DNA from: an uncultured Dehalococcoidia bacterium
GTDB taxonomy: Bacteria; Chloroflexota; Dehalococcoidia; Lucifugimonadales; G958296245
Assembly: GCA_958296245.1 (NCBI GenBank)
Contig: OY282458.1
Span: 1,572,777 to 1,636,776, forward strand
Length of the DNA: 64,000 bases
Direction of reading: 5' to 3'
The number at the start of each line of letters is the position of its first letter. The first letter of the stretch is position 1. The position numbers were made by a program, and so were the translations under genes. Below, in pieces: positions 14,670-61,159 of the stretch. The notes beneath the pieces were generated by a model. The model was not told where the DNA came from, ran no database searches, and worked only from the letters and a program-made list of their open reading frames with translations.

Positions 14670-16649
14670 ATGATGAAGAGTTACCGACTGCTGGTTGCGA
14701 TAGCTGCAATCCTCGCTCTTGGGGTGGCTGCGGCCTGTACCCGCGAGGTGATCAAGGAAGTCCCGGTGGAAGAGGTCGTCACCCAAGAGGTGATCAAAGA
14801 GGTGCCGGTGGAGGTGGTGGTCGAGAAGCAGGTGCTCAAGGAGGTGCCGGTGGAGGTGGTGGTCGAGAAGGAAGTGCTCAGGGAGGTGGAGGTGCCGGTA
14901 GAAAGGGTGGTCGAGAAGGAAGTCATCAGGGAAGTGGAAGTGCCGGTCGTTGTGGAGAAAGAGGTTGTCAGGGAGGTGGAGGTAGTCAAGGAAGTCGTGG
15001 TTCCCGAAGGGGAACAGGCCTCGGTCATCAACTGGCGCGCCTCCAGCGCCGTCACCAAGCTGTCGCCCTTCACGGCGGTCAGCGGGTACGTGGGCCTCAT
15101 AGGCACTCACGTCTTCTCAACCCTTATGAAGGGCAACCCGCATGCTCAGGTATATGCTCCCGATCTCGCGGCGCGCTGGGAAGTAGCTCCCGACGGAAGC
15201 TCGGCGACGTTCTATCTCCAGAGGAACGCCTTCTTCCACGACGGTGAGCCGGTAACGGCGGACGACATAGCCTTCTCCTTCACGTCGTACATGGACCCGC
15301 GCACCAAGAGCCGCGCCGTCCAGAGGCTCGCAATGGTCAAGGGAGCCGAGGCCTTCGCCGACGGCACCGCCGACTCCGTTGAGGGAATCAACGTAATCGA
15401 CGACTACACGATCCGGTTCGACATGGCCTTCCCGACGGGGCAGTTCCTGACCCAGGCCGCTGGGGTGTACGCGCTCCCGGAGCACATCCTGGGCAAGTTG
15501 GCCCCTGAGGATATCGACGACAGCGAGTTCTTCATCGGCTTGGGGTCTCAGAAGCCAATCGGCTCAGGCCCTTGGAAGTTCGTCCAGCACGAGCCCGACC
15601 AGTTCCACGAGCTGATCAGCAACGACGAATACTACCTCGGCAAGCCGAAGATCGACCGCGTATTCGTACACCTGATCACCAGCCCCGACACGGCCCAGAT
15701 CGCCATGCAGCGGGGTGAGATCGACGGCAGCAGGCGCGGCGGGTTCACGCCCGAAGTGAACCAGACGTTCTTGGCCGACCCTCGATTCATCATCGCGGCG
15801 GTAGGCGGGCGCGGGAACGGGCGCGGCTTCTCGTTCAACTTCCGCACCGACTGGATCGCCGACGCGCGCATCCACCAGGCGTTCATGTGGGCGTTGAACC
15901 GCAAGCAGATCGTAGACACGTTCAGCGCCGGCTTGGGGTACATCCACAACACGAACCTTTTCGTTCCCACGGGCGTCGAGACTCCCGAAATGATGGCCCG
16001 TTACACCCACACCGGCGACAGCGCGATGGCCCGCCAGCTTCTGACAGAGGCCGGCTGGGACTTCGACCGTGAGGTGACCGCCAAGGCCCCCGGATACGGC
16101 GCCGACCAGCGGCCCCAGATGGCCGCCAAGCAGCAGATGCTCGCGGAATCCGGGCTGAAGGTCACCTTTGAGACGATGGAGACCCCGGTCTGGGCAGCCG
16201 TCTACTACGAGAACTACAACTACGACCTCGTGTACGTCGGCGGCTGGGGCGGCGCTGTGGACCACCTGAACTACTACTTCCACAGCCAGAACACCAACGC
16301 AATGGGCTACGCCACCCCGGAACTAGACGCCCTGCTGGACGCGGTGCCCAGGGCCCTCAATGACGACGACTTGGTCAAGATCGGACTTCAGGTCAACGAG
16401 ATGTTCATCGAGGATCTGCCGATCGTGGTGATATCTACGCCTCTCAGCCTTACGACCTACGGCGCTCACGTCTGGATACCCGGATACGGCAGGCGGCCAC
16501 AGCCCGACCAGCTCAAGAACATCGTCTTCACGCCCCAGTTCGCGGGCGGCGGGGAGTGGGAGTACTTGATGCACCAGACCGACATCGTGGAGTTCGGGAC
16601 GACTCACCCGCTCAACGATGCCGGGCCGCTTCACGGACAGCTGCGGTAG
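14670..16649 (+). CDS. Peptide-type ABC transporter substrate-binding lipoprotein with V/E/K stalk
   Basis: The 659-residue lipoprotein has signal peptide M-M-K-S-Y-R-L-L…, lipobox V-A-A-A-C23, then about 90 residues (24-113) of imperfect repeats of V-P-V-E-V-V-V-E-K-E-V-(L/I/V)-(R/K)-E. A family 5 solute-binding domain follows (A-A-R-W-E-V, F-H-D-G-E-P-V-T-A-D-D). The repeats look like a stiff charged stalk that holds the binding domain away from the membrane. ATG 14670 is preceded by AGGGGG, and the frame open from 14601 adds no signal peptide. It probably delivers peptides or glycoside-like solutes to permeases at 25802-27746 and the ATPase at 13278. R3 inverted repeats flank it. Confidence 0.92.
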   Translation: MMKSYRLLVAIAAILALGVAAACTREVIKEVPVEEVVTQEVIKEVPVEVVVEKQVLKEVPVEVVVEKEVLREVEVPVERVVEKEVIREVEVPVVVEKEVVREVEVVKEVVVPEGEQASVINWRASSAVTKLSPFTAVSGYVGLIGTHVFSTLMKGNPHAQVYAPDLAARWEVAPDGSSATFYLQRNAFFHDGEPVTADDIAFSFTSYMDPRTKSRAVQRLAMVKGAEAFADGTADSVEGINVIDDYTIRFDMAFPTGQFLTQAAGVYALPEHILGKLAPEDIDDSEFFIGLGSQKPIGSGPWKFVQHEPDQFHELISNDEYYLGKPKIDRVFVHLITSPDTAQIAMQRGEIDGSRRGGFTPEVNQTFLADPRFIIAAVGGRGNGRGFSFNFRTDWIADARIHQAFMWALNRKQIVDTFSAGLGYIHNTNLFVPTGVETPEMMARYTHTGDSAMARQLLTEAGWDFDREVTAKAPGYGADQRPQMAAKQQMLAESGLKVTFETMETPVWAAVYYENYNYDLVYVGGWGGAVDHLNYYFHSQNTNAMGYATPELDALLDAVPRALNDDDLVKIGLQVNEMFIEDLPIVVISTPLSLTTYGAHVWIPGYGRRPQPDQLKNIVFTPQFAGGGEWEYLMHQTDIVEFGTTHPLNDAGPLHGQLR

Positions 16650-19921: not shown

Positions 19922-20190
19922 AGCAGGTTGGGAATGCAGGGAGAGGCGCCCCCTCATGTTGTCCGTGGACTGCGTTCGGAATGACAGTCTTGGGGAGGCC
20001 CTCACGATTCGACTCATGAATACTGAACGGCTACAGCCGATCCCCGGGGCTTGTGCCGCGCTTCACCTCCACGTTAAGCTTGTCTTCATCTGCCCCCGCG
20101 GCCTCTAGGGACCCGCCGAATCTTGTCTTACTTCACGCCATCCAACCATGCCCACAGGCTAGGCCCGGTCCCCGGGGAAGTACGGCTTTA

Positions 20191-20988
20191 ATGGGACCCG
20201 CCCTACTGCTCGGCCTGCTTCAGGGTGTCTTGGAGTGGTTGCCCGTCAGCTCCGAGGGCATGGTCGTGGTGGTATATTCCCTCGTCTTCGAGGGCGGCGC
20301 GGCAGGTGGGATCGAATATGCGCTGTGGCTTCACGCCGGCACCGCTCCCTCGGCGCTCGTCGCCTTCCGGGGAGAGGCCGCCGGCATCCTGCGCGACGTT
20401 CTCACGAGACCGGCCAAGCCGTCCCCGCTGACAGCCTTTCTCTTCGTGTCGACGCTGATCAGCGGCGTCATAGGGCTGCCGCTGTTGCTCTACCTAACCG
20501 AGGTTTCGGACGGGCTGAGCTCCGCTGCTATGGCAATCGTGGGGGCTGCCCTTCTTGTCACCGGCGCTCTCCAATTGCGGCGACCGATTGGGGGCGCCCG
20601 CACCCGCGGGGACCTTTCCGGGGTAGACGGGCTGTTGGCCGGCGTCTCTCAGGGAGCGGCGGTCATTCCCGGCCTTAGCCGGTCCGGTCTGACGGTGGCG
20701 GCGTTGCTCTGGCGCAACCTGGACCGGCGCGAGGCTCTGGTCATCAGCTTCCTCATGAGCGTGCCGGCCAGCCTGACGGCCGCCGCGTACGCTTGGACGT
20801 CCGACAGCTTCTCGGTCTCTGCCGAGGCTCTGGCCGCAGCCGCCGTAGCATTTGTGATCAGCTTGGCCACGATTCGCGTACTGATGGCCGTGGCGGAGCG
20901 GGTCAACTTCGGCGTGTTCGTAATGGCGGCGGGGGCAGGCATCGTAGCCGGGACTGCCCTGCTTACATTCGGCTCGGCCACCGGTTAG
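20191..20988 (+). CDS. uppP: Undecaprenyl-diphosphatase (UppP/BacA family)
   Basis: The 265-residue polytopic membrane protein has both BacA signatures: G-L-L-Q-G-V-L-E-W-L-P-V-S-S-E-G and P-G-L-S-R-S-G. It dephosphorylates undecaprenyl diphosphate outside the membrane, which recycles the lipid carrier for wall and surface glycans and frees phosphate. I start at ATG 20191 because the family begins close to M-G-P-A-L-L-L-G-L-L-Q-G and GGGGAAG precedes it; a start at 20053 adds 46 unlike residues from repeat DNA. It sits between the two-component genes and pstS, so phosphate control is possible. One difference is S-S-E-G-M-V where many members have S-S-S-G-H. Confidence 0.88.
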   Translation: MGPALLLGLLQGVLEWLPVSSEGMVVVVYSLVFEGGAAGGIEYALWLHAGTAPSALVAFRGEAAGILRDVLTRPAKPSPLTAFLFVSTLISGVIGLPLLLYLTEVSDGLSSAAMAIVGAALLVTGALQLRRPIGGARTRGDLSGVDGLLAGVSQGAAVIPGLSRSGLTVAALLWRNLDRREALVISFLMSVPASLTAAAYAWTSDSFSVSAEALAAAAVAFVISLATIRVLMAVAERVNFGVFVMAAGAGIVAGTALLTFGSATG

Positions 20989-28493: not shown

Positions 28494-30923
28494 TCATTCT
28501 GCCGCATCAAAAGGGAACTCCGCCTCCCAGAGGTGTTTGTAACCGCCTTCCACGGGCACGAACTGGCCGGTCTTGATGGAGGCGATGTCATAGGCGGGAA
28601 GCTCGCGCACGGCTACGGGCCGCTCGGTTAGCTGAAGTTCGTAGTCCTCAAAGCGGAAGTCGAGATTGTCGAAGCCGTACTGCGCGCGGTGGTCGGGGAG
28701 GTCGTTCACGTCGGCGGGGTACAGGTGGAGGAAGAATCGCACGGCGGCGGCGCTGCTGGGCTGCACAGGTAGGGAGGACACGGTCATCGCCTTGACCCGA
28801 TTGCCACGGCTGTCGGTGTAGTGAACATAGGCCCGCAGCCGCTGGCCGACATCCGCGGCGGTGGGCGTGTACATGCCTGCGTGACCAAAGGGGGGGCCGG
28901 AGACATTGGTCCAGCCTTCGGCATCGCTGCCGCGCTCCCACTGCCAGGCGCTCCGGTCTGTGAAGCCCGCGCGGTGCACGGCAGGGGACAACACGGCATA
29001 GAACGGCTTACCCACTATCGGAATGTCCTGTTGGTACGATAATCGGGCGGCTCTATCTTCGCCTTGATTCCCCACGTAAATCAGTTTGTTCCCACTGCGA
29101 TACACGTCAAAATAGCCATCGCGACGGACTACGAGTTCAGATTCCTGAATCATCTCGTCTATCTGCGTGGAATAGCCGCTCTGGCGGTAGAGAAAGAACC
29201 GCCGGTTGTCCGGCGTCAGCAGAGCGGGGACGTCGATTCGTTGGCGCGAGACGAAGAAATCGTATGCGAAGATATCAGGCCACGCAGGCCACGAGCGTCC
29301 AATCACTCTTCCTGCAAGATAATAATTCATCACCCTACCTACCCCGACAAACAGACTGGAGGATGCGGTGACAAAAACACTCTGTCCCGGCTCTACTATT
29401 GTCCTGATATGCTCAAAATCCGAAATGGCCGCCTGAAGTTCAGACGCCTGCCGGTCGTGCCCAACGCGCCCCATCTGGAAGCTGGAAAGGACGAATATCA
29501 GCAGCGCGGCCGCGGAGAGACCGACCAGAAGACGGCCGGCGAGTAACCGGCGCATGCACAACAGCCCTATCGAGAAGAGGACCAACGGAACGCCGATATA
29601 GAAGACGCTCTCATAATCATAGAGGGCGGTATTATGGCGCATCGGCAATGCCCAGCAGAAGCCGGCTATCAGCAAGGTTGCCAGCAGCATCTTCTGGCGG
29701 GCAAACAGCAGCCCAATGACGGCGAGGCCGACCGCCAACGCTCCGACAATCACGCTGAGGTAGTTATCGTACCTCCATCTATCTTGGTCAAACGGATTGA
29801 TTATGAACGGCAGCGTAGCTCCGGCGATGCGGTAGAACTGATTCGGCAGGAAGTTTCCCCATTCGAGAGTCTCGGCGAAGTACTCATTGAACCCTTCACC
29901 CGCTCCAAGGCGATCCGTCATGGACTTCACCGTAGGCAACTCAGTCAGCGGGACCTCACCGTCAAACGCCCGATATTCGTTGCCCAGGTTGAAGGCCAAC
30001 ACCGCTATGCCGAAAAGCAGGGTGACGACGCCCAGCGTCATGTATCGGCTGAACAGCAGCGCCGAGGCGCAGCGCTTGATTCGACCTGTCAAGCTCGGAG
30101 GGGTAGATAGCCGGCGCGCCCGGTTCAGCTCGATCGCCATACCCAGGACAATAAAGGGCAGCAGCAGCGCATAGACGTGCCAGCCCAGCAGCAGAGCCGC
30201 ACACGCCTTGATGAGCAACTGCCGGAAGCGGCCCTCTTGGACAAAGAGGACCATGCCGTGGAAGGTCAGCAGCACGCCGAAAAGGGAAAGGCCATTTTCG
30301 GTAGCTATCATGTCGTTGTAATAGAGCAAGTAGTACGACGAGAACGCCAGCAGAGCGGTAGTCAAGGCAATCCAGCGGTTGTCGGCAAGCCGGTAGAGGG
30401 ATAGGTAGGCCAGCGCGGCGCTGCCGGCAAAAAAGAGCAGAAACACCATGCGGGCGGCATAGATTTTCGCCGCTAGGCCATCCCCGAACGGCAGTATGGC
30501 CAGTTTGATCAGCGCATAGCCGCCAATCGGAAAACGATTGTATGGGATGTAAGAGGGGGCGCCGTCTTCATCCAGGGTTTGACGACGGAACAACAGGAAG
30601 TTGTGTTCGGGAGATAGATTCGCGGCTACCGACAAGTGGTTCGCCGATACGGAATTGTGGTATCCCGGCCGGTATAAAGAGTCTCGCCGGTCGTTGCCGA
30701 ACAGGAACACCGTTGACAGCGCCAGCAGCAGCAGCAACAGCGGCAACGACGCCCACGCGCTCATGTTCTGGTAGCGCACGGCAAGGGCGCGCCACAGATT
30801 ATTCAGCGCGAAGCGACGTAGGCCGTTCCCGCTACTGTTCAAGGCGTATCTCTCCCCCCCAGATGTTATCGAAACCGCCTTCCACGGGCACGTACTGGCC
30901 GGTCTTGATGGAGGCGATGTCAT
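28494..30923 (-). CDS. Large polytopic membrane protein, tandem paralogue 1 (with Ig-like domain)
   Basis: The 809-residue protein has about ten membrane helices in residues 55-470 (first L-P-L-L-L-L-L-L-A-L-S-T-V-F-L-F), loops with S-P-E-H-N-F and R-F-P-I-G-G-Y-A-L-I-K, then a soluble outer region. The layout recalls GT-C glycosyltransferases, but no clear catalytic acid motif is seen, so function is unknown. The outer part holds an Ig-like domain (W-Q-W-E-R-G-S-D…Y-T-P-T-A-A-D-V-G-Q-R-L) and a family-specific end (F-F-L-H-L-Y-P-A-D-V…F-V-P-V-E-G-G). The first 27 codons reuse the tail of the upstream paralogue in another frame. A coupled TTG at 30842 is an alternative start. Confidence 0.8.
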   Translation of the reverse strand: MTSPPSRPASTCPWKAVSITSGGERYALNSSGNGLRRFALNNLWRALAVRYQNMSAWASLPLLLLLLALSTVFLFGNDRRDSLYRPGYHNSVSANHLSVAANLSPEHNFLLFRRQTLDEDGAPSYIPYNRFPIGGYALIKLAILPFGDGLAAKIYAARMVFLLFFAGSAALAYLSLYRLADNRWIALTTALLAFSSYYLLYYNDMIATENGLSLFGVLLTFHGMVLFVQEGRFRQLLIKACAALLLGWHVYALLLPFIVLGMAIELNRARRLSTPPSLTGRIKRCASALLFSRYMTLGVVTLLFGIAVLAFNLGNEYRAFDGEVPLTELPTVKSMTDRLGAGEGFNEYFAETLEWGNFLPNQFYRIAGATLPFIINPFDQDRWRYDNYLSVIVGALAVGLAVIGLLFARQKMLLATLLIAGFCWALPMRHNTALYDYESVFYIGVPLVLFSIGLLCMRRLLAGRLLVGLSAAALLIFVLSSFQMGRVGHDRQASELQAAISDFEHIRTIVEPGQSVFVTASSSLFVGVGRVMNYYLAGRVIGRSWPAWPDIFAYDFFVSRQRIDVPALLTPDNRRFFLYRQSGYSTQIDEMIQESELVVRRDGYFDVYRSGNKLIYVGNQGEDRAARLSYQQDIPIVGKPFYAVLSPAVHRAGFTDRSAWQWERGSDAEGWTNVSGPPFGHAGMYTPTAADVGQRLRAYVHYTDSRGNRVKAMTVSSLPVQPSSAAAVRFFLHLYPADVNDLPDHRAQYGFDNLDFRFEDYELQLTERPVAVRELPAYDIASIKTGQFVPVEGGYKHLWEAEFPFDAAE

Positions 30924-33246
30924 AGGAGGGAAGCTCGCGTACGGCTATGGGCCGCTCGGTTAGGGGAAGATAGTAGTCGTCGAAGCGGAAGTCGAGGTTG
31001 TCGAACCCCTGCCGCTTTCTGTGGTCGGGAAGGTCGTTCACGTCAACGGGGATGAGGTGCAGGAAGATGACCGCCTCGGCGGCGCTGCTGGGCTGCACAG
31101 GTGGGGAGGGCGTGGTCATCGCCTTGATCCGATTGCCGCGGCTGTCGGTGTAGTGGACGTAGGCACGCAGTCGATAGCCCTCATCTGCAGCGGTGGGCGT
31201 GTACTCGTAGGTGGGTCCTGGACGGTCGGAGCCGGAGACGTTGGTCCAGCCTGCGGCATCGCTGCCGCGCTCCCACTGCCAGGCGCTCCGGTCCGTGAAG
31301 CCCGCGCGATGCACGGCTGGGGACAGCGCGGTAGAGAACGGCTTACCCACTATCGGAATGGCCTGTGCGATGAATCGGGCTGCTCTATCCTCGCCTTGGT
31401 TCCCGACGTAAATCAGCCTGTTCCCGCTGCGATACACGTCAAAATAGTCATCGCCACGGATTACAAGTTCGGATTGTCTGATCATCTCGTCTATCTGCGC
31501 TGAGTAGTCGCCCCTTCGGTAGAGAAAAATCTGCCTGTTTTCAGGCGTCAGCAGAGCGGGGACGTCGACTCGCTGGCGCGAGATAAAGAAATCGAAGCTG
31601 TCACGCCACACGGACCAAGGGCGTCCAATCATCCTTCCTGCAAGATAATAATCCACCGCCCGACCTCCCCCGGCAAACAGACGGTGGGGTATGAGGTTAA
31701 GAACGCTCCGGCCCGGCTCTGCTATCGTCCTGATATGCTCAAAATCGGCAACCACCGCTTCTTGATATTCGGACGCCTGCAGGTCGTGACCAACGCGCCC
31801 CATCTGGAAGCTGGAAAGAACGAAGACCAGCAGCGCGGCAGCGGAGAGACCAACAATAAGACGGCCGCCGAATGACCGGTGCAGGCGCGACAACCCCACT
31901 GAGAAGAGGACCAACGGAACGCCGATATAGAAGACGCTCTCAAAATCATGGAAGGCGGTATTATGGCGCATCAGCAATGCCCAGCAGAAGCCGGCTATCA
32001 GCAGGGTTGCCAGCAGCATTCTCCGGCGGGCAAACAGCAGCCCGATGACGGCGAGGCCGACCGCCAACGCTCCGACAATCACGCTGTTGTAGTTATCGTA
32101 CCTCCATCTATCTTGGTCAAACGGATTGATTATGAACGGCAGCGTCGCTCCGGTGATGCGGTAGAACTGATTCGGCAGGAAATTTCCCCATTCCAAAGTC
32201 TCGGCGTAGCGCTCACTGAACCCTTCATCCGCTCCAACGCGATACGTTATGGACTTCACCGTAGGCAGTTCAGTCAGCGGGACCTCACCGTCAAACGCCC
32301 GGTATTCGTTGCCCAGGTTGAAGGCCAGCACCGCCATGCCGAAAAGCAGGGTGACGACGCCCAGCGTCAGATAGCGGCTGAACAGCAGCGCGGATACGCA
32401 GCTCTTGATTTGACCTGCCAAACTCGGAAGGGCAGATAGCCGCGCCCTGTTCAGCTCGATCACAATACCCAGGACGATAAAGGGCAGCAGCAGCGCATAG
32501 ACGTGCCAGCCCAACAGCAGCGCGACGCACGCCTTGACGAGCAACTGCCGGAAGCGGGCCTCTTGGACAAAGAGGACCATGCCGTGGAAGGTCAGCAGCA
32601 CGCCGAAAAGGGAGAGGCCACTTTCGGTAGCTGTCATGTCGTTGTAGTACAGCAAATAGTACGACGAGAACGCCAGCAGAGCGGCAGCCAAGGCAATCCA
32701 TCGGTTGTCTGTCAGCCGGCGGAGGGACAGGTAGGCCAGCGCCGCGCTGCCGGCGAAAAAGAGCAGAAACACCATGCGGGCGGCATAGAGCTGCGCCGAA
32801 AAGTCGTTCCCGAAAGGCAGGGTAACCAGTTTGATCAGCGCATAGCCGCCAATCGGAAAGCGGCTGTAAGGCTCGTATACGGGAGCGCCGTCTTCATCCG
32901 GGGTTTGATGATAGAACAACAGGAAGTTGTGTTCGGGAGATAAATTCGCGGCTACCGCCAGGTGATTCGCCGATACCCCACTGTGGCCCCCGGGCCGGTA
33001 GAAGCGCCCCCGGTCGTTGCCGAACAGGAACACCGTTGAAAGCGCCAACAGGAGCAGCAATAGCGGCAACGACGCCCCCGCGCTCATGTTCTGATAGCGT
33101 GCGGCCAGGGCGCGCCACAGATTATTCAGTGCGAAGCGACGTAGGCCGTTCCCGCTACTGTTCAAGGCGTATCTCTTCCCCCCAGATGTTATTGAAACCG
33201 CCTTCCACGGGCACGTACTGGCCGGTCCTGATGGAGGCGATGTCAT
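30832..33246 (-). CDS. Large polytopic membrane protein, tandem paralogue 2 (with Ig-like domain)
   Basis: The 804-residue protein is collinear with paralogue 1, with long near-identical DNA tracts, the same helices and the same Ig-like domain (S-A-W-Q-W-E-R-G-S-D-A-A-G-W-T-N). It ends N-I-W-G-G-E-I-R-L-E-Q with TAG at 30832. That stop overlaps a possible TTG start of paralogue 1 (TTGAACAGTAG), so the genes look translationally coupled. Its own first 27 codons again lie out of frame in the tail of paralogue 3. The protein is expected in the cell membrane with its C-terminal region outside. Function is unknown; a role in surface glycan transfer is only a guess from the fold pattern. Confidence 0.8.
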   Translation of the reverse strand: MTSPPSGPASTCPWKAVSITSGGKRYALNSSGNGLRRFALNNLWRALAARYQNMSAGASLPLLLLLLALSTVFLFGNDRGRFYRPGGHSGVSANHLAVAANLSPEHNFLLFYHQTPDEDGAPVYEPYSRFPIGGYALIKLVTLPFGNDFSAQLYAARMVFLLFFAGSAALAYLSLRRLTDNRWIALAAALLAFSSYYLLYYNDMTATESGLSLFGVLLTFHGMVLFVQEARFRQLLVKACVALLLGWHVYALLLPFIVLGIVIELNRARLSALPSLAGQIKSCVSALLFSRYLTLGVVTLLFGMAVLAFNLGNEYRAFDGEVPLTELPTVKSITYRVGADEGFSERYAETLEWGNFLPNQFYRITGATLPFIINPFDQDRWRYDNYNSVIVGALAVGLAVIGLLFARRRMLLATLLIAGFCWALLMRHNTAFHDFESVFYIGVPLVLFSVGLSRLHRSFGGRLIVGLSAAALLVFVLSSFQMGRVGHDLQASEYQEAVVADFEHIRTIAEPGRSVLNLIPHRLFAGGGRAVDYYLAGRMIGRPWSVWRDSFDFFISRQRVDVPALLTPENRQIFLYRRGDYSAQIDEMIRQSELVIRGDDYFDVYRSGNRLIYVGNQGEDRAARFIAQAIPIVGKPFSTALSPAVHRAGFTDRSAWQWERGSDAAGWTNVSGSDRPGPTYEYTPTAADEGYRLRAYVHYTDSRGNRIKAMTTPSPPVQPSSAAEAVIFLHLIPVDVNDLPDHRKRQGFDNLDFRFDDYYLPLTERPIAVRELPSYDIASIKTGQYVPVEGGFDNIWGGEIRLEQ

Positions 33247-35353
33247 AGGGGGGAAGCTCGCGCACGGCTATGGGCCGTTCGGTTAGCGGAAGCTTGTAGT
33301 CGTCGAAGTGGAAGTCGAGATTGTCGAAGCCGTACTGCTTGCGGTGGTCGGGAAGGTCTTCCACGTCAACAGGGGTGAGGTGCAGGAAGAAGGTGAATTG
33401 GGTGGCTCTATCCTCGCTTTGGTTCCCGACGTAAATCAGCTTGTTCCCGCTGCGATACACGTCAAAATAGTCATCGCCACGGATTACAAGTTCGGATTGT
33501 CTGATCATCTCGTCTATCAGCCCTGAATAGTCATAGTCGCCCTGGCGGTAGAGAAAAATCTGCCTGTTTTCAGGCGTCAGCAGAGCGGGGACGTCGACTC
33601 GCTGGCGAGAGATAAGAAAATCGTATGCGAAGCTGTCACGCGGGGTTCCAATCACTCTTCCAGCAAGATAATAAGGCAGCGCACGCGCCCTGGCAAACTG
33701 ATAAGAGTCAAGGAGTCCCCATACGGGTTGGGGGACAGAAACGCTCTGTCCCGGCTCTGCTATTGTCCTGATATGCTCAAAATCGGCAACGACCGCTTCT
33801 TGGAATTCAGACGCCTGCCGGTCGTGACCAACGCGCCCCATCTGGAAGCTGGAAAGAACGAAGACCAGCAGCGCGGCAGCTGAGAGACCAACAATAAGAT
33901 GGCCGCCGAATAACCCCCGCAGACGCAACAGCCCTATTGAGAAGAGGACCAACGGAACGCCGATATAGAAGACGCTCTCAAAATCATGGAAGGCGGTATT
34001 ATTGCGCATCAGCAATGCCCAGCAGAAGCCGGCTATCAGCAGGGTTGCCAGCAGCATTCTCCGGCGGGCAAACAGCAGCCCAATGACGGCGAGGCCGGAC
34101 GCCAACGCTCCGACAATCACGCCGCGGTAGTCATCGTACCCCCATATATCGTGGTCAAACGGATTGATTATGAACGGCAGCGTCGCTCCGGTGATGCGGT
34201 AGAACTGATTCGGCAGGAAGTTTCCCCATTCCAGAGTCTCAGCGTAGCGCTCACTGAACCCTTCATCCGCTCCAACGCGATACGTTATGGACTTCACCGT
34301 AGGCAGTTCAGTCAGCGGGACCTCACCGTCAAACGCCCGATATTCGGTGCCCAGGTTGAAGGCCAACACCGCCATGCCGAAAAGCAGGGTGACGACGCCC
34401 AGCGTCAGATAGCGGCTGAACAGCAGCGCGGCTGCGCAGCTCTTGATTTGACCTGCCAAACTCGGAGGGACAGATAGCCGCGCCCTGTTCAGCTCGATCA
34501 CAATACCCAGGACGATAAAGGGCAGCAGCAGCGCATAGACGTGCCAACCCAACAGCAGCGCAATGCACGCCTTGACGAGCAACTGCCTGAAGCGGCCCTC
34601 CTGGACAAAAAGGACCATGCCGTGGAAGGTCAGCAGCACGCCGAAAAGGGAGAGACCATTTTCGGTAGCTGTCATGTCGTTGTAGTACAGCAAATAGTAC
34701 GACGAGAACGCCAGCAGAGCGGCAGCCAAGGCAATCCATCGATTGTCTGTCAGCCGGCGGAGGGACAGGTAGGCCAGCGCCGCGCTGCCGGCGAAAAAGA
34801 GCAGAAACATCATGCGGACGGCATAGAGCTGCGCCGAAAAGTCGTTCCCAAAAGGCAGGGTAACCAGTTTGATGAGCGCATAGCCGCCAATCGGAAAGCG
34901 GCTGTATGGGACGTAATCAGGGGCGCCTTCTTCATCCAGGGTTTGATGATAGAACAACAGGAAGTTGTGTTCGGGGGATAAATTCGCGGCCACCGACAAG
35001 TGATTCGCCGATACCCCACTGTGGAGACCGAGCCGGTAGAAGCGCCCCCGGTCGTTGCCGAACAGGAACACCGTTGAAAGCGCCAGCAGGAGCAGCAACA
35101 GCGGCAACGACCGGAGGAAGGTTGAATTGCCCCCCCCCGTACTTATGTTCTGATAGCGCGCGGCCAAGGCGCGCCACAGATTATTCAGCGCTGAGCGCTG
35201 GGCGTACCTCTTCCTCCCAGATCTTCTGCTGGATCTTCTTCTGCGTCTGGCGGGGTTCCGGTTACTACTCAAGGCGTATCTCTTCCTCCCAGATGCTATT
35301 AAAACCGCCGTCCACGGGCACGAACCGGCCAGTCCTGATGCGGGTAGTATCAT
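33155..35353 (-). CDS. Large polytopic membrane protein, tandem paralogue 3 (lacking the Ig-like domain)
   Basis: The 732-residue protein is closest to paralogue 2 through the membrane region. After V-G-N-Q-S-E-D-R-A it passes directly to F-F-L-H-L-T-P-V-D-V, so the roughly 100-residue Ig-like domain of the other two copies is cleanly absent (junction near 33393). It has an extra N-terminal Arg/Ser-rich stretch (R-R-R-R-R-S-S-R-R-S-G-R-K-R-Y-A) made by a short duplication, and an insert S-T-G-G-G-N-S-T-F before the first helix. As first gene of the array in transcription order it may be the founder or a derivative. ATG 35353 lies in the remnant of a fourth copy; TTG 35272 is an alternative. 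Confidence 0.78.
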   Translation of the reverse strand: MILPASGLAGSCPWTAVLIASGRKRYALSSNRNPARRRRRSSRRSGRKRYAQRSALNNLWRALAARYQNISTGGGNSTFLRSLPLLLLLLALSTVFLFGNDRGRFYRLGLHSGVSANHLSVAANLSPEHNFLLFYHQTLDEEGAPDYVPYSRFPIGGYALIKLVTLPFGNDFSAQLYAVRMMFLLFFAGSAALAYLSLRRLTDNRWIALAAALLAFSSYYLLYYNDMTATENGLSLFGVLLTFHGMVLFVQEGRFRQLLVKACIALLLGWHVYALLLPFIVLGIVIELNRARLSVPPSLAGQIKSCAAALLFSRYLTLGVVTLLFGMAVLAFNLGTEYRAFDGEVPLTELPTVKSITYRVGADEGFSERYAETLEWGNFLPNQFYRITGATLPFIINPFDHDIWGYDDYRGVIVGALASGLAVIGLLFARRRMLLATLLIAGFCWALLMRNNTAFHDFESVFYIGVPLVLFSIGLLRLRGLFGGHLIVGLSAAALLVFVLSSFQMGRVGHDRQASEFQEAVVADFEHIRTIAEPGQSVSVPQPVWGLLDSYQFARARALPYYLAGRVIGTPRDSFAYDFLISRQRVDVPALLTPENRQIFLYRQGDYDYSGLIDEMIRQSELVIRGDDYFDVYRSGNKLIYVGNQSEDRATQFTFFLHLTPVDVEDLPDHRKQYGFDNLDFHFDDYKLPLTERPIAVRELPPYDIASIRTGQYVPVEGGFNNIWGEEIRLEQ

Positions 35354-42439: not shown

Positions 42440-42670
42440 ACTCATCCCTACCCGTTCAGTCTCCATGAGTTGAACCGTGAGCTTACCAAGTTGTGATTCC
42501 GAACACGGCGCCAGTTGCCCTAAATTGTCATTCCGAACACAGCGCCAGCCTCCCCAACTGTCATTCCGAACGCAGCGCAGCGGAGTGAGGAACCTGAAAG
42601 GCCCTGCCATCGGGGCGGCCCATCCGCTCCCCGACGGCCCGGCGCGTGTGCAGGGCTTCAAAAGCAGTCG
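42440..42670 (+). repeat. R3-type repeat cluster
   Basis: Three tandem-like pieces start GTGATTCCGAACACGGCGCC (42494), GTCATTCCGAACACAGCGCC (42527) and GTCATTCCGAACGCAGCGC (42560). The last continues AGTGAGGAACCTGAAAGGC and GGCGCGTGTGCAGGGCTTC, as in the R3 copies at 14341 and 17098. This is the only content of the 323-base gap before the ABC genes. Confidence 0.65.
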
Positions 42671-44970: not shown

Positions 44971-46542
44971 CTACTGGGCTAGAGTCGCCCTCACCTGCTC
45001 GGTGCGAGCCACCAGGTCCGCGAACTCCGCGACGCGGATGTCCTGCGCAAGCAGCTCTTGGACGCGCCTGGCCTCCGGGAGCACGGCGCTCAGGCTCCCG
45101 TCCTGCGCCCAGTAGCTCCCACGCAGCACCTCGGCGTATTCGGCGACGACCGCCGCCATCTGGAACCTGGGCGAGGCCTCTTCGAATTCGGCGGTAAGCT
45201 CGCCCCGTTGGAACTCGCGGCTCATCTCGGAGACCTCCCCCGTGTCGGGGTTTTCGTAGCGCAGATACACGGTTGCCAACGTTCCGTCCGCGCCGCCGTG
45301 GAGCTTCAGTTCGTAGAGCGCCGTCACGCTGTGGTCGGCGCCGACCTCCCCCGCGTCCACGGAGTCGTTGCGGAAGTCCTCATCGGCGACCCGCCGGTTC
45401 TCGTACCCGAGCAGCCTGTAGCGGCTGACCACGTCGGGGTTGAAGTCAACCTGTACCTTGGCGTCTTTGGCTATCACCTGTAGGGTCCCAACGAGGTTCT
45501 CGGAGAAGATGCGCCTAGCCTCCGTGAGAGAGTCCACGTAGTGGTAGCTGCCGTCGCCGTCGTTGGCAAGCTGCTCCATCAGAACGTCGTTGTAATTACC
45601 CATCCCGAATCCGACGGTGGTGAGGGTCACGCCCTGTTCGACGTGCTCCCTGATCTCACTCAGGATGCCATCCGCGCCGGTCCGGCCGACGTTGCCCACG
45701 CCGTCCGAGAGGAGGAGGACGCGGGTAATCCTTCCGGGCCGCGCCCGTTTGGCCGCCAACTCATACGCCAGCCGCAGCCCGTCCTCTACGTAGGTGGACC
45801 CTCCCGCGCTCAGGGAGTATACGGCCCTCATTATCGCGTCCTTGTCCTCGCCGTCGGTGGGATCGAGGACGACTTGGCCATAGTCGCCGTAGACCACGAT
45901 TCCAACCTCGTCCGTAGGCCGTAGCTCATCGACGAGGATCTGCAGGGATCTCTTGACCATCCCCAACCGATCCTCGCGCCCCATGGATCCCGATACGTCT
46001 ATGGCAAAGACGAGTGTGGCGTCCTTCCGTTGCCCCGCGTCAACCGACTTCCCCCGCAGGCCCACCCGCAGAAGCCAATGGTTGCCGCCGCCGAAAGGCG
46101 AAGGCGACCCATCGACGTGGATGGCGAATGCGTCCTGCGCCGGCGGGGCGTAGCCCTGCTCGAAGAAGTTCACGAACTCCTCCACCCGCACCGAGTCCGG
46201 GTCGGGCAGATTGCCGTCTTGCACGAAGCGCCGGGTCACGCTGTACGACGCGGTGTCCACGTCCGTGGCGAAGGTGGACAGGCGGTCGTCCTCGGTATCG
46301 ATGAAGGGGTTTACGCCGTAGTTCTGGAAGAAGGTCAGGTCGTAGGGCTTGTCGTTGACCGTCGCGGTGCCGCCTATGACGTTGAAGTGCTCGGGTCCAA
46401 CCTGCTCGGCGGCGGCCCCTCGCTCCACCACCACTTCGACAGGCATCTCTTTGACCGTTTCCCCTGATGAACAGGCCGCCAGTACCATGGCCAGCGCGGC
46501 CATCCCAATAATCGCCGCTATGCTCTTCAGATTAAGCCTCAT
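44971..46542 (-). CDS. VWA-domain lipoprotein (YfbK-like)
   Basis: The 523-residue lipoprotein has lipobox V-L-A-A-C24 and a short stalk piece K-E-M-P-V-E-V-V-V-E-R. A VWA_N-like region follows (N-P-F-I-D-T-E-D-D-R-L-S-T-F-A-T-D-V-D-T-A-S-Y), then a von Willebrand A domain with MIDAS D-V-S-G-S-M-G and T-Y-V-E-D-G-L, and a C-terminal domain like that of E. coli YfbK. AGGAGGT precedes the chosen ATG; the longer frame to 46662 lies in R1 copy F. It is probably outside the cell membrane, binding a protein partner through a metal. Its neighbour upstream on the same strand is a second VWA lipoprotein. Confidence 0.9.
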   Translation of the reverse strand: MRLNLKSIAAIIGMAALAMVLAACSSGETVKEMPVEVVVERGAAAEQVGPEHFNVIGGTATVNDKPYDLTFFQNYGVNPFIDTEDDRLSTFATDVDTASYSVTRRFVQDGNLPDPDSVRVEEFVNFFEQGYAPPAQDAFAIHVDGSPSPFGGGNHWLLRVGLRGKSVDAGQRKDATLVFAIDVSGSMGREDRLGMVKRSLQILVDELRPTDEVGIVVYGDYGQVVLDPTDGEDKDAIMRAVYSLSAGGSTYVEDGLRLAYELAAKRARPGRITRVLLLSDGVGNVGRTGADGILSEIREHVEQGVTLTTVGFGMGNYNDVLMEQLANDGDGSYHYVDSLTEARRIFSENLVGTLQVIAKDAKVQVDFNPDVVSRYRLLGYENRRVADEDFRNDSVDAGEVGADHSVTALYELKLHGGADGTLATVYLRYENPDTGEVSEMSREFQRGELTAEFEEASPRFQMAAVVAEYAEVLRGSYWAQDGSLSAVLPEARRVQELLAQDIRVAEFADLVARTEQVRATLAQ

Positions 46543-46696: not shown

Positions 46697-48264
46697 TAGC
46701 GCCTCCGAGAGGTCTGCGCTTGACCGTCGACCAAGTGGGCCATCTCCTCCTGTACGAGCCTTACCACGAGGTCGTCCAGCTGCTGGATCGTGTACTGGCT
46801 CACGTGGTGGGGCGTCGCGCCGCCGGCGCCGTAGACGATGAAGATGAACCGGCCCATCGTATGCTGGGATATCTGCCTGAAGACGTATTCGCCCTGGTCG
46901 TCCAACCCGCTGGAAGCTATGGTGAATATCTTGATGCCCCGGCGGTGGGCCTCGATCATCTCCTCGGCGTAGTCGTTGTCCTGCGAGTAGTCCAGGTGAG
47001 GAGGGGCATCGGCGATCATGAAGACCAGGCGAATGGCGTCGCCCAGCCGCCAGCTAGGCCCGTGTACGGCCTCGTGGAGCGCCTCGTTGACCGACTCCGG
47101 GTAGTCACCCCCGCCGTCGGCGTGTACTCCCTGAATCGTATTCAGGAACTGTTGCACGTCGCGGTCGAAGTCGAAGGTCAGGGTAACGTAGTCGTCGCCC
47201 CTATCCCTGTAAGTTACCATCCCGAAGCGCAGGTCGGGCCGCGACGGCAGGTTGTGTATCCGCTCCGATATGGACAGGAGCGTATCCTTGACCTGGTCTA
47301 TCTCGTCGGCCATGCTGCCCGTGGAATCCAGCAGGAACAGGACGTCGAGCGGGACTCTGCGGCTGTTGGACCTGTCCACGTCGAGCTTCACGACCCACTC
47401 GTTCCCCTGGCGGCGAGTGGTGTCCAAGTACTGGCTCACGCCGTCTTTCTCGACGTGGAGGCGGAAGGCCGAAACGTTGCTGGCTTGAGGGAATGCCCGT
47501 GGAAAGAACAACGATTGTCCGTTGGCGTAGGTGCGCCCTTCGAAGATCGTCGTCTGGTCCGCGGAAACTCGCACGATCGCGTTGGGAACGGGCCGGCCGC
47601 GGGAGTCCCTCACCGAGATGACGTACCGCTCGGACACGTCGACGTCGTGAACGCGCGGGCCGGCATAGCTGCTGCGATACCGCAGGTATTCTCCCCAGCG
47701 TTCGTTGTCGTCTACCTCGCCTGCCGAGAGCGTTACCGGATTGGGCCTGGAACGCCTCCTCTCGGGACTCGGTGAGCCGGACGCGGGCGCCGCCGAGTCC
47801 GATTCGGCGGACTCCGCCTCCACCATGGCCTCTATCTCTCTGACCACGTCCTTCTCCACCACTACCGGCACCTCCTTGACCACCTCCTTCTCCACCACTA
47901 CCGTCTCCCCCGGCACACTGACCTCTCTGACAACCTCCACCTCCACCTCTCTGACAACTTCCTTCTCCACCACCACCTCGACCGGCACCTCCACCTCTCT
48001 GACAACTTCCTTCTCCACCACCACCTCGACCGGCACCTCCACCTCTCTGACAACTTCCTTCTCCACCACCACCTCGACCGGCACCTCTACCTCTCTGACA
48101 ACTTCCTTCTCCACCACCACCGGTACCTCTTTGACCACTGTCTCAGTGACGACCTCAGTCACAGGCACCTCTTTGACCGTTTCCCTTGAACAGGCCACCA
48201 GCGCTATAGCCAACACAGCCATCACTCCGGCGGCGGCGTATATCCCCAAACGGCGTATCATCAT
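46696..48264 (-). CDS. VWA-domain lipoprotein with V/E/K stalk repeats
   Basis: The 522-residue lipoprotein has lipobox A-L-V-A-C25, then about 110 residues of repeats around V-E-V-P-V-E-V-V-V-E-K-E-V-V-R-E; three units are exact 48-bp DNA repeats. A Ser/Pro/Arg-rich linker, a possible small beta domain and a von Willebrand A domain (F-L-L-D-S-T-G-S-M-A-D-E) follow, with a late aspartate site M-I-A-D-A-P-P-H. GGAGGGAGTA precedes tandem ATGs. The stop is inside the end of R1 copy F. It is divergent from the HTH-TM-TPR gene across 164 bases, which suggests shared control. It is expected to stand on the cell surface on its stalk. Confidence 0.88.
   Translation of the reverse strand: MMIRRLGIYAAAGVMAVLAIALVACSRETVKEVPVTEVVTETVVKEVPVVVEKEVVREVEVPVEVVVEKEVVREVEVPVEVVVEKEVVREVEVPVEVVVEKEVVREVEVEVVREVSVPGETVVVEKEVVKEVPVVVEKDVVREIEAMVEAESAESDSAAPASGSPSPERRRSRPNPVTLSAGEVDDNERWGEYLRYRSSYAGPRVHDVDVSERYVISVRDSRGRPVPNAIVRVSADQTTIFEGRTYANGQSLFFPRAFPQASNVSAFRLHVEKDGVSQYLDTTRRQGNEWVVKLDVDRSNSRRVPLDVLFLLDSTGSMADEIDQVKDTLLSISERIHNLPSRPDLRFGMVTYRDRGDDYVTLTFDFDRDVQQFLNTIQGVHADGGGDYPESVNEALHEAVHGPSWRLGDAIRLVFMIADAPPHLDYSQDNDYAEEMIEAHRRGIKIFTIASSGLDDQGEYVFRQISQHTMGRFIFIVYGAGGATPHHVSQYTIQQLDDLVVRLVQEEMAHLVDGQAQTSRRR
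47940..48110 (-). repeat. 48-bp in-frame tandem repeats in the stalk
   Basis: About three and a half 48-bp units, each encoding V-E-V-P-V-E-V-V-V-E-K-E-V-V-R-E, follow each other almost without change. Such a run can gain or lose units by slippage, altering stalk length without changing frame. Confidence 0.85.
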
Positions 48265-53442: not shown

Positions 53443-55374
53443 CTAACTCGTATCTCCCATGGGGTCATGCTCCGGCTCTTCCTCCTCGTATGCCTCGGAG
53501 TAGCCAGCCGAGGTCAACGCTTCCTTGAAGACTTCGGCGCCGCTGCCAATCTCCTTGCCCATGGCCTGTCCGATCAGCCTAAGCATTGCTTCACCTCGTT
53601 CTATGAACGAGTGCCCGAAGTTGTCTGTCTCCAAGTGCGCGGGGTTCAACCAATGAGCCTTAAGTGCCTGTTCTAATCTCTCTCTGCCCATGTCTTTCTC
53701 GAGCCGTTTCAGGTAGGTCGACGGAGCACGCCCGCCGATGATCTGGTTCGTGGTCTTGCTGAGAGGCGTCTTGTTGATCACCGAATCGTAGAGGCGCGGC
53801 GGGATGGCAGGCTTCGAGCTTCGGCACCAAGCGGCTGGGAAGACGTGGTGTATGTCGATGTTCTCTGCACCATAGGCACGAAGGGACAGAGGCTGGTTGC
53901 TTCGCCAGTCATTCGCTCTGTTTTTCATCTGCAATGCGTATATGCCCTTGTACGCCGCGCTGTTACGTTTACGGAGCGTCAGCAGCCGCTCGGGAATGAA
54001 GCTGGCCTCCACAATCAAGGTTGGCTGGGGTCCACCCCTTACGTACTCCGCGACTTGAGCCAGATCCAGCGCGTACTGGGTCTCGATTGTTCCACCGTAG
54101 GTTTCGCTGAAAATGCCTGCCCAATACCAGTGGGCAAGCCTCTCGGCGGCATTCGCGGGCACCAGCTCGTCGCCCAGCTCCACGTACAGAGCGGCCATCG
54201 GCACTAGTTGGGTGTTGTATGGGACATTATGACGCCCAAAAACAAACTGACTCTCCAGGAACTTCGCCGCCTCGCGCAAGCCCTTCTCAACCTTATCGGC
54301 CCATTCCTGGTAATCGCTGAACCGCAGATTGAGAACGTCTCGTCTCTTGCAGCTTATGGGAGGCAGCCTGTTCGCAGGCTGGCCGTCTCTGATGGCCTGT
54401 CGCCGACCTTCCTGAGTCTTGAGCAGGGTAATCGCCTGCAGGAAATGGTCACCCCATATCCCCTGAAGCACGCCGTGGCTGGAGTGGAGGCGATTTCTGC
54501 GCTCATCCCAGTCCTCTCGGAGCGAGAATCCCTCCGACTCAGCGGCGAAGGAGGCCGTCACCAACTCAAAGACGTTTAGTGGTACTCCGCCTGTGTTGAC
54601 CTTCTCGAATACGGTGCAGACAGCCTCTTTCGGAGTTCCCTTATCCAGGTGGATGACGGGCAGCAGGTATTTTGCAAATGGCTGTATGACTAGATGGTTG
54701 AACCTATTGAAGAAGTCGCCAGCACTATTCGTGGGGTGACCGGCTCGGCTACTCCAGTGATCGATGTAGCCTAGTAACCAATTCATGGGTTCGAATAGGC
54801 GCTCCGTAGGAAACATGTGGTTCTCGTACTCGAACTCCGGCTTGGAGAGGTCTCGTACCGTCTCACGTCCGAAGTCGCGGGTGACTTTCTTGTTTTCGGG
54901 AACACTGATGACCGCTTCATCTCTGTCACCAGACTCCGACACTGCCTCCTGCATGTCGATGTAGTACCAGCGTCGAGTCTTCTTGCCGCGGTTATCCTGC
55001 GTGGACACGGGACCGGGGTGTCGCAGAGCCTGATACAAGGAAGTGAGCCGCTGCTGGCCATCCAACAGAAACTGGTTGGGTGTAACACCGTTCTTGTCGC
55101 TGACTCCCTCAATCAAGCGGGCCTTGAATCTGATGTCGCCCCCGGCGCCAAGAGTCATGACCGCGCCGACCGGAAACCCGCGGGAGATACTGGTCAGGAG
55201 TCCCTTAATCCTGTCATCGTCCCATATCCAACCTCGTTGAAAATCCGGAAGCTGGATCACACCCTTTTCGATATTGTCCAGCAATGTGCTGAGTAGAATG
55301 GGATTCGTATTGAACAATGGAGACTCCTTGTCGCCGATACGCCGGTCATACCTAGGCTGCCGACTATCTGGCAT
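53443..55374 (-). CDS. DUF262/DUF1524 (GmrSD-type) nuclease-like defence protein
   Basis: The 643-residue protein has a DUF262 ParB/Srx-fold NTP-binding domain at the front (I-Q-L-P-D-F-Q-R-G-W-I-W, then F-L-L-D-G-Q-Q-R-L-T-S-L) and a DUF1524-like His-Me finger nuclease region near residue 510 (I-D-I-H-H-V-F-P-A-A-W, then I-N-K-T-P-L-S…N-Q-I-I-G-G). This is the single-chain plan of GmrSD-type type IV restriction enzymes, which attack modified phage DNA. Its G+C is visibly lower than its neighbours', which suggests transfer. It stands alone. The start is ATG 55374 with AGGTGA upstream. Confidence 0.85.
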   Translation of the reverse strand: MPDSRQPRYDRRIGDKESPLFNTNPILLSTLLDNIEKGVIQLPDFQRGWIWDDDRIKGLLTSISRGFPVGAVMTLGAGGDIRFKARLIEGVSDKNGVTPNQFLLDGQQRLTSLYQALRHPGPVSTQDNRGKKTRRWYYIDMQEAVSESGDRDEAVISVPENKKVTRDFGRETVRDLSKPEFEYENHMFPTERLFEPMNWLLGYIDHWSSRAGHPTNSAGDFFNRFNHLVIQPFAKYLLPVIHLDKGTPKEAVCTVFEKVNTGGVPLNVFELVTASFAAESEGFSLREDWDERRNRLHSSHGVLQGIWGDHFLQAITLLKTQEGRRQAIRDGQPANRLPPISCKRRDVLNLRFSDYQEWADKVEKGLREAAKFLESQFVFGRHNVPYNTQLVPMAALYVELGDELVPANAAERLAHWYWAGIFSETYGGTIETQYALDLAQVAEYVRGGPQPTLIVEASFIPERLLTLRKRNSAAYKGIYALQMKNRANDWRSNQPLSLRAYGAENIDIHHVFPAAWCRSSKPAIPPRLYDSVINKTPLSKTTNQIIGGRAPSTYLKRLEKDMGRERLEQALKAHWLNPAHLETDNFGHSFIERGEAMLRLIGQAMGKEIGSGAEVFKEALTSAGYSEAYEEEEPEHDPMGDTS

Positions 55375-59458: not shown

Positions 59459-60793
59459 TCAGTACACCTCCATGTATTCGGAGCGCTCCCAGTCCGTGAC
59501 GTGCTCCCGGAAGCGTTGCGCCTCGTTCCGCTTCATGGCGCAGTAGACTTGGATGAACTCGCTGCCTAGAAGTTCCGAGAAGCTGCTATCGGCCTCCAAG
59601 GCGTCCAGCGCCTCCGGTAGGCTGCCGGGGAGCGCGTCATGCTCGGGCCGGCTCTCCGCCGGGCCTTCACCGGGAGGGGCTGCGGGGATGCCGGCCTCAA
59701 TTCCAAGCAATCCACCGGCCACGACCGCCGCCAGAGCAAGATAGGGGTTGGACAGACCCGTACCGAGCCTATTCTCCAAGTGGGTATTCTCGTCACGCGG
59801 GTTCTTGGCCCGCACCAACGCCGTCCGGTCCTCAACGCCCCAGCTCACGTTGGAGGGGGCGAAGTGGTGCGGCACGAACCGATGGTAGCAGTTCACCGAA
59901 GGAGCAAGCATCGCCATGCTCGCGCTCGCATGGTCCAGCATTCCCTTGACGTACTGCCGGCAGATACCGGACAGGCCGTCTGCATCCCCCGCGTCCAAGA
60001 ACACATTCTCGCCCGTGTCCTTGTCCAGCAGGCTAACGTGAACGTGGCACCCGCTCGCCGACTGGTCGGCGAACGGCTTGGTCATGAAGGTAGCGTTGTA
60101 ACCGAGTTGGCGGGCTATCTCCTTGACGCCGTTCTTGAACGTAAAGCTCACGTCTCCCGCAGCCACTCCAAGCGCGGGGCTGTAGTTTATCTCGAACTGG
60201 GACGGGCCGTACTCGCTGTTGGCCGTGATTACGTCGACCCCCGCCAGCGGCATCTGGTCGAGTACCTGTCCGATGACCGGTATATAGGTGTTCCTAATGG
60301 TGTTGAAGACGTGGACCCCGCCGAAGGTGGGCTCGCCCGTCTCGCCGTCCATCACGTAGAACTCGTACTCCAAGCCGGCCTTGACCAAGTACCCCATCTC
60401 ATCAGCCCGCTCCACCATGCGCTTCAACACCTGCCGCGGCGCGGCGCGCTGAGGGACGCCGTCGTCCCAGTAGCCGTCGCAGATCAGCCGAGCCGTCGAT
60501 TCTGCCCAAGGAACGACGGACGCTGTCTCGAGGTCCGGGATGAGCCGCTGGTCGGCGTATAGGACTTCCTCATTGTACAGAGTCCCTCCGACCACGGATG
60601 AGGCGGTATCCAGGGCGACGGCGCCGCCGTAAAGGTTCAGTCCCGTAGCGGAGAAGCTCTCCACGTGGTCCAGCGGTATTATCTTCGAACGGCTGGTCCC
60701 GTGGAGGTCCGGAAGCTCGAAGCGCACGTAGCGTACGCCGTCCTCTCTCCACGCACGCACCAGTTCCTCTATGGAGGCGTTGTTGGCGGCCAC
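59459..60793 (-). CDS. Glutamine synthetase-family ligase (GlnA or GmaS-like)
   Basis: The 444-residue ligase of the glutamine synthetase fold has an N-terminal beta-grasp (R-Y-V-R-F-E-L-P-D-L-H-G), catalytic-domain motifs G-L-E-Y-E-F-Y, Q-F-E-I-N-Y and H-V-H-V-S-L, and E-N-R-L-G near the end. It joins ammonia or an amine to glutamate with ATP. As first gene of an operon with MgsA, MgsB and MgsC-like subunits, and with the length of GmaS, it may make gamma-glutamylmethylamide; ordinary glutamine synthesis is the alternative. It starts at GTG with GAGGTAAGG upstream. Confidence 0.9.
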   Translation of the reverse strand: MAANNASIEELVRAWREDGVRYVRFELPDLHGTSRSKIIPLDHVESFSATGLNLYGGAVALDTASSVVGGTLYNEEVLYADQRLIPDLETASVVPWAESTARLICDGYWDDGVPQRAAPRQVLKRMVERADEMGYLVKAGLEYEFYVMDGETGEPTFGGVHVFNTIRNTYIPVIGQVLDQMPLAGVDVITANSEYGPSQFEINYSPALGVAAGDVSFTFKNGVKEIARQLGYNATFMTKPFADQSASGCHVHVSLLDKDTGENVFLDAGDADGLSGICRQYVKGMLDHASASMAMLAPSVNCYHRFVPHHFAPSNVSWGVEDRTALVRAKNPRDENTHLENRLGTGLSNPYLALAAVVAGGLLGIEAGIPAAPPGEGPAESRPEHDALPGSLPEALDALEADSSFSELLGSEFIQVYCAMKRNEAQRFREHVTDWERSEYMEVY

Positions 60794-61159
60794 ACCCTTA
60801 CCTCAGAGTTTGACTGGACCGGAGCCCGGCTCATGATCCGTGGGGATTGTACTCAGTCACTCAACGTTCCGCAAACGCGGGGCAGCTTCAGACAGACCGC
60901 CAAGCAGCCTGGAGGGCCGCCGCGCCGTCAGCCCCTCTTGCGGATGGGAATCCCAGTCCACGCCGCGTATCCCATTGACCACACAGGGCGGCTTGTGGCT
61001 TTGAGTCTGTCTTTGCACGAATGCTTGATAGTATACGCTCGTGAGGCCGCTCATGGAAAATCGACCGCTGGAACAGCCCGTCCCCGACTCACGCAGCAAT
61101 CATCCGGAAGGGCTGGCCACTCCTACCCGTCGCTGCCCATTGCCCAAGGAAGCCGCCAG
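60794..61159. other. Non-coding gap before the methyltransferase
   Basis: These 366 bases hold no gene I can support. A frame is open through them to the methyltransferase, but its translation is unlike protein and the methyltransferase has a good internal start. A TTGCAC…GTATAC pair near 61012-61040 could be a promoter, with poor spacing. Confidence 0.4.

Follow-up and report, generated by a model that had tools for sequence, protein, structure and literature searches.

A valine-rich stalk with charges sorted by residue parity behind the predicted lipid anchor of lipoproteins from an uncultured Dehalococcoidia bacterium

Alveolin repeats are described, in excerpts of two sources, as Val- and Pro-rich with Glu and Lys (consensus EKIVEVP) and as parts of membrane-skeleton filaments (PMC12465100, PMC4303705). 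The repeat period of the alveolin (IMCp) domain is given there as 12 residues (PMC4303705), and the repeats are said to be unordered when alone and to form a twisted beta-ribbon in AlphaFold-Multimer when paired (PMC12465100). The MAX1 hairpin peptides are built around the turn V-DPro-Pro-T, with VPDGT in an expressed analogue, and hairpins of this type associate both laterally and face to face, as stated in excerpts of PMC12940918. A literature search on the motifs of the stalk reported here, with most subscription journals outside its scope, returned no description of such a stalk.

The window is a stretch of 64,000 nucleotides from the genome of an uncultured Dehalococcoidia bacterium. An earlier note on this DNA had proposed that the same V/E/K stalk follows the lipobox Cys of three unrelated lipoproteins, and translation and a pattern scan find it in all three: a peptide-binding protein (P0001), a second VWA protein (P0002) and a first VWA protein (P0003). 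Their bodies are indeed unrelated or differently built, namely SBP_bac_5, VWA and YfbK-type VWA; that of P0001 belongs to SBP_bac_5 with 221 bits against a PF00496 gathering score of 32.4. The stalk of P0001, put at about 90 residues, has 88, and the single unit expected in P0003 is there, 17 residues long; P0002 does carry the stalk, but its length is 120 residues rather than about 110. The 48-bp repeat units placed at 47940-48110 are real and form a slightly longer array (Table 1). A scan for a basic n-region, a hydrophobic segment and a lipobox Cys close to the N-terminus yields four lipoprotein candidates, of which three bear stalks; on these features P0001, P0002 and P0003 are predicted bacterial lipoproteins, the lipobox of P0001 being loose because its −3 residue is Ala. 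The fourth candidate in the window is PstS-like; behind its Cys, at position 21296, it carries a polar linker of the ordinary kind instead of a stalk.

Table 1. Coordinates of the three stalk-bearing lipoproteins within the window
Feature	Position	Strand	Description or basis
P0001 ORF	14670-16649	+	SBP_bac_5 lipoprotein with stalk
P0001 signal peptide and lipobox Cys (Cys at 14736)	14670..14738	+	translation; hydrophobic segment and lipobox pattern
P0001 V/E/K stalk, 88 residues	14739..15002	+	parity: Glu 23:1, Lys/Arg 0:13
P0001 solute-binding body, SBP_bac_5	15003..16649	+	E 3.3e-65
P0002 ORF	46696-48354	-	VWA lipoprotein with stalk
P0002 likely start codon	~48264	-	judged by eye
P0002 lipobox Cys (Cys at 48192)	48190..48192	-	translation; lipobox pattern
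P0002 stalk, 120 residues	47830..48189	-	translation
48-bp tandem array within P0002 stalk	47938..48121	-	3.8 copies, 99% matches
Pro-Gly of P0002 stalk, charge parity flip site	47908..47913	-	parity scan
P0002 VWA domain	46837..47346	-	E 4.6e-14
P0003 ORF	44971-46662	-	YfbK-type VWA lipoprotein
P0003 lipobox Cys (Cys at 46473)	46471..46473	-	translation; lipobox pattern
P0003 single stalk unit, 17 residues	46420..46470	-	parity: Glu 0:4, Lys/Arg 2:0
P0003 VWA domain, YfbK-type protein	45505..46014	-	domain search

Other features of the window may be recorded here. On the minus strand, 28494-35353 holds a tandem of three similar ORFs (732-809 residues) that look like membrane proteins; only the third has a weak PMT_2 match (E 0.003, below the cut-off). 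Between ORFs, at 42486-42578, there is a 34-bp repeat in 2.8 copies with GTCATTCCGAAC-like cores. A GmrSD_N restriction-type protein (53443-55374, minus strand) and a D12 adenine methyltransferase (60665-62284, plus strand) are encoded in the same window.

Along the stalk the sign of the charge alternates strictly: Glu occupies one residue parity and Lys or Arg the other. The charges lie on their own face in 469 of 482 cases in 15 stalks of the host genome (P0003 is left out; its parity was computed separately) and in 1412 of 1494 cases in 59 distinct stalks of relatives, the shuffled value being 0.59 for both; for 11 stalks with few common 6-mers the count is 303 of 322, with a shuffled maximum of 0.625. 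The first two of these counts pass over segments that hold under 6 charges or under 2 basic residues, as well as any Glu directly after Pro-Gly, and since the stalks share ancestry, the parity, spacing and flip counts are of non-independent events. In those segments of the host genome that lack Pro-Gly, distances are even for a fraction of 0.896 of Glu-Glu pairs, 0.976 of basic-basic pairs and 0.061 of Glu-basic pairs (shuffled about 0.49). A period of 2 is that of a beta-strand, and the charge spectrum has a single large peak there, at 180 degrees (18.6 in the host genome and 15.6 in relatives, with a shuffled maximum of about 1.2), while values for whole stalks at helical angles are 1.3-3.0. 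Windows of 40 residues that score at least 0.85 make up 74% of 367 from stalks, 1.3% of 447 from bodies and 0 of 192 from other proteins of the window.

One face thus sorted is made of Glu, Pro, Thr and Ile, and the opposite face holds Lys, Arg and most Val (178 of 182 Lys/Arg and 364 of 501 Val in the stalks of the host genome). Plain alternation of Val with charge, as in a simple amphipathic strand, was rejected: the hydrophobic moment at 170 degrees is lower than in shuffled sequence in 14 of 14 stalks. The earlier note had held that such alternation suits an extended strand or a coiled fibre; the sorting of charge with period 2 and the strand-only models described below agree with the strand, and the small helical values of the charge spectrum speak against the fibre. 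Read from the sequences, the sorting of charges to opposite faces suggests a built structure and not a floppy leash. This period-2 code is the strongest finding of the analysis, and it speaks for a beta-structured stalk rather than a floppy tether.

The charged motifs recur at even spacings where no Gly intervenes (120/120 in the host genome; 279/282 intervals in relatives) and at odd spacings across Gly (14/14 and 21/24); a slightly different definition of the motif gave 118 even and 14 odd spacings in the host genome. Without Gly, the spacings take ten different even values from 4 to 22. Those of the host genome are 4, 6, 8, 10, 12, 14 and 16 without Gly and 13 and 17 with it, and a unit of 14 residues is common. 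The parity of the charges flips at all 34 decidable [PA]-G-x-T sites, many of which have common ancestry and are not separate events (8 more sites are undecidable), and at 7 of 2539 decidable positions without Gly. In a hairpin whose loop at Pro-Gly has two or four residues, exactly this flip is required if every Glu is to stay on the same side of the sheet; a beta-bulge would account for it equally well.

The stalk extends beyond the three genes in which it was noticed. A search for the motif after lipoboxes across the genome, a single contig of 2,685,284 bases, gives 16 stalk genes: 12 of the 14 SBP_bac_5 genes, 2 VWA genes, one of five Peripla_BP_6 matches and the sole SBP_bac_8 match. This count combines the stalk search, a DNA pattern and a read-out of each locus, and very short or divergent units may be missed by it; two of the Peripla_BP_6 matches (L133 and L135) lie side by side and may be pieces of a single broken gene. 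The DNA pattern for V-x-K/R-E-V has 85 matches in the genome and a control pattern read backwards has 6; given this difference and the 16 stalk genes read out, the motif is not due to chance. A further 12 single matches to the pattern, located in unrelated frames, were judged to be chance and set aside. Stalk length varies between genes, as had been supposed, from 17 to 146 residues. Most stalks of the genome contain about 42% Val, and Pro is regularly present in the Val-rich stalks. In the same genome, P/T/E-rich linkers stand at the same place in L022, L032, L131, L134 and the PstS-like protein, L131 and L134 being Peripla_BP_6 matches.

Among relatives, a 12-row profile finds stalk matches in 61 of 247 genomes of the order, the host included, and a search with a single stalk sequence finds them in 11 of 40 relatives, again including the host. 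An even sample of 400 genomes across the phylum contains 21 with matches: the host, 19 of one family (f73) and 1 of another family. Genomes of the same class with 24-30 reductive dehalogenase matches in 1.4-1.9 Mb accord with a placement in class Dehalococcoidia, phylum Chloroflexota. Genomes of family f73 have up to 20 stalk matches each, and their signal peptides resemble Tat signals when judged by eye. The searches gave 79 loci outside the host genome, of which one (L083) showed no stalk in the segmenter; the remaining 78 were merged to 59 where the first 30 residues were shared, for the counts of parity, spacing and lipoboxes. A lipobox Cys lies at most 9 residues upstream of the stalk in 57 of these 59, with a slight bias towards lipoboxes because the search queries contained the Cys. 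The two stalks with no lipobox nearby (L099 and L100) both belong to YfbK-type proteins; one follows a hydrophobic segment and the other, that of L100, lies inside a Pro/Ala-rich stretch.

The bodies of 51 of the 78 loci, near-duplicates having been removed by hand, were scanned against Pfam and fall into overlapping sets: 29 SBP_bac_5, 10 SBP_bac_1, 10 SBP_bac_8, 8 SBP_bac_6, 3 Peripla_BP_6, 3 OpuAC, 2 vWF_A, 1 RCC1_2 and 1 DctP. In one relative (L060) RCC1 repeats follow the stalk and there is no binding protein. A locus from the Acetobacteraceae was discarded as a stalk relative, its match beginning at residue 143 and so covering the body only; the same holds for the plasmid matches listed (10 of 3077 records), which start at residue 127 or later. 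The view that a shared module stands right behind the membrane anchor is supported by the host genome and by relatives alike, on unrelated bodies. The stalk proves to be a real, sequence-specific module that is widespread across two lineages.

Similar proteins of related genomes, grouped by eye as putative orthologs, form 35 pairs. Stalk pN/pS in these lies between 0 and 0.58 (one pair, with a pS of 0, gives no ratio), and stalk pS reaches 0.59. The stalks of L102/L103 (pS 0.589, pN 0.024) and L116/L123 (pS 0.506, pN 0.028) are comparable to their bodies. Two distant pairs show nearly equal constraint on stalk and body (0.04 and 0.03; 0.06 and 0.04), and several groups of closer relatives have a stalk less constrained than the body, with pN/pS up to 0.58. 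From these comparisons putatively orthologous stalks appear for the most part to retain their residues as synonymous sites diverge. Within the host genome the peptide VVVEKEV occurs in 34 copies in 9 genes, in 21 DNA spellings.

The stalks of 27 of the 35 pairs align without gaps, and the other eight have gap totals of 2, 2, 2, 2, 14, 2, 8 and 6 residues, all even. The proposal that stalk length can change by slippage fits the 48-bp array, which is found in one gene, and the difference of 14 residues between L078 and L079; the gap-free pairs count against it. The DNA of the P0002 stalk has a weak 6-base and a strong 48-base periodicity. In two species, L087 and L091 have identical stalk DNA, their bodies standing at a pS of 0.275, and near-identity extends over about 300 bases upstream and about 540 bases downstream of the start of the stalk; it seems from this that the 5′ region has been exchanged.

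Single-sequence AlphaFold models of the stalk alone contain strands only, at low confidence, for both P0001 (pLDDT 53.6, pTM 0.41) and P0002 (pLDDT 58.5, pTM 0.50). Alveolin repeats are reported to resemble them in this respect, with order seen only when a partner is modelled (PMC12465100). Foldseek with such a low-confidence model against the PDB gave a best E of 1.0 (probability 0.04), a sequence search of the PDB with the stalk gave zero matches at E up to 10, and Pfam and NCBIfam gave chance matches only. Pfam presumably contains an alveolin domain model, and the alveolin family is absent from the Pfam matches of three stalks at E up to 10. Neither this search nor the period places the stalk in the alveolin (IMCp) domain: a 12-residue step occurs in the stalks but is not their period.

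As to the envelope in which the stalk would stand, nothing in the whole genome matched the PBP transpeptidase or Omp85 families, and the organism therefore looks monoderm and without ordinary murein cross-linking. BacA is nevertheless encoded in this genome, at 20053-20988. According to excerpts of PMC10284905, peptidoglycan genes were lost before the marine radiation of Dehalococcoidia, and Tepidiforma keeps peptidoglycan and has a periplasm of 40 nm under an S-layer. Judging from gene content, a thick murein wall is unlikely in the present organism; a candidate S-layer is more likely to be the layer to be crossed, if there is one. By calculation, 88 residues would span about 30 nm and 146 residues about 50 nm at most when fully extended, folded hairpins being much shorter. 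It is possible that the stalk sets the height of surface proteins.

The explanation that we hold to be somewhat better than evenly probable is that of a beta-structured, membrane-proximal, modular spacer, acidic on one face and Lys/Val on the other, by which surface proteins are spaced or co-assemble. The stalk appears from sequence to sit directly behind the membrane anchor of many surface proteins. Its chain would run as extended beta-strands, pairing in hairpins at Pro-Gly or between molecules, with the Glu/Thr/Pro face in water and the Lys/Val face packed, and neighbouring stalks may stack, acidic face on basic. Such a stiff ribbon would keep binding and VWA proteins at a distance from the membrane in what seems to be a monoderm lacking ordinary murein cross-links. 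We infer both the setting of height and the assembly, and the function may be spacing, clustering or a surface skeleton. A disordered, flexible tether like the P/T/E-rich linkers, its composition keeping it soluble while the binding protein roams near its permease, would agree with the low AlphaFold confidence of the monomer, with the wide range of lengths between genes and with the linkers that occupy the same place in the same genome. A floppy chain, however, has no need of strict parity, even spacings or flips at Pro-Gly; the high Val content, the position of 14 of 14 stalks on the folded side of the charge-hydropathy line and the residues kept between relatives also weigh against it, and we consider it unlikely, if still a serious contender. 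More doubtful is an extension of the spacer reading in which stalks of different lipoproteins co-assemble, with strands side by side and acidic faces against basic ones, into a shared beta-sheet lawn outside the membrane: this would be a surface skeleton that clusters nutrient-binding proteins where there is no murein wall, convergent with the alveolin cortex of protists, with the Pro-Gly turns as a written fold-back code.

That Lys, Arg and most Val share a face, and that the stalk begins right at the lipid anchor, would also suit an amphipathic belt lying on the membrane, its Lys/Arg/Val face on acidic lipids and Glu outward, so that the protein is held near its permease. The wide variation in length is hard to explain by such a belt, and the L100 stalk lies within Pro/Ala; we regard it as improbable. 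Neutral slippage of hexanucleotides, that is of dipeptides, would keep parity through its six-base units without selection on structure, and both the periodicities of the P0002 stalk and the evenness of every nonzero gap total accord with it. A one-base change from Glu to Lys, though, would land on the Glu face, whereas Lys and Arg stand opposite it by 178 to 4 in the host genome; moreover, the same peptides are written in many spellings, and amino acids are kept where synonymous sites have diverged, which leaves slippage with a smaller chance still. A coiled-coil fibre could draw on small peaks, at 100-105 degrees for charge and at 105 degrees for hydropathy, but the charge peak at 180 degrees is at least about five times larger and a heptad period of 3.5 is not found. 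Spacings from 4 to 22 break heptads, the stalk is Val-rich with regular Pro, and helix is absent from both AlphaFold models; this fibre is hardly credible.

On the reading as a beta-structured spacer, charge parity offers a readable rule by which a probable strand can be recognised in low-complexity stretches that are usually masked or called disordered. The stalk also bears on how uptake proteins are arranged at the surface of monoderm Chloroflexota without cross-linked murein, and, if stalks do assemble, it would represent a new kind of bacterial surface skeleton.

Alveolin repeats and the designed MAX1 hairpins are the closest analogues of the stalk, a likeness by analogy, homology having been sought in Pfam, NCBIfam and the PDB and not found there. 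Ordinary P/T/S/E-rich lipoprotein linkers occupy the same place between lipid anchor and globular domain, and both kinds occur in this genome; the stalk differs from them in being rich in Val, in its strict charge parity and in its conserved residues. With alveolins (IMCp), articulins and plateins it has in common Val/Pro-rich repeats with Glu and Lys; alveolins, however, belong to the intracellular cytoskeleton of protists, whereas the stalk would stand on the outer face behind a lipid anchor and has spacings of 4-22. The MAX1-type peptides resemble it in the alternation of Val with charge around a Pro-containing turn, for which the stalks use VPGET. MAX1 is synthetic, 20 residues long and charged by Lys only, while the stalk is natural, up to 146 residues long, divided into a Glu face and a Lys/Val face and attached to a predicted lipid anchor; it looks like a natural counterpart of these designed hairpin materials.
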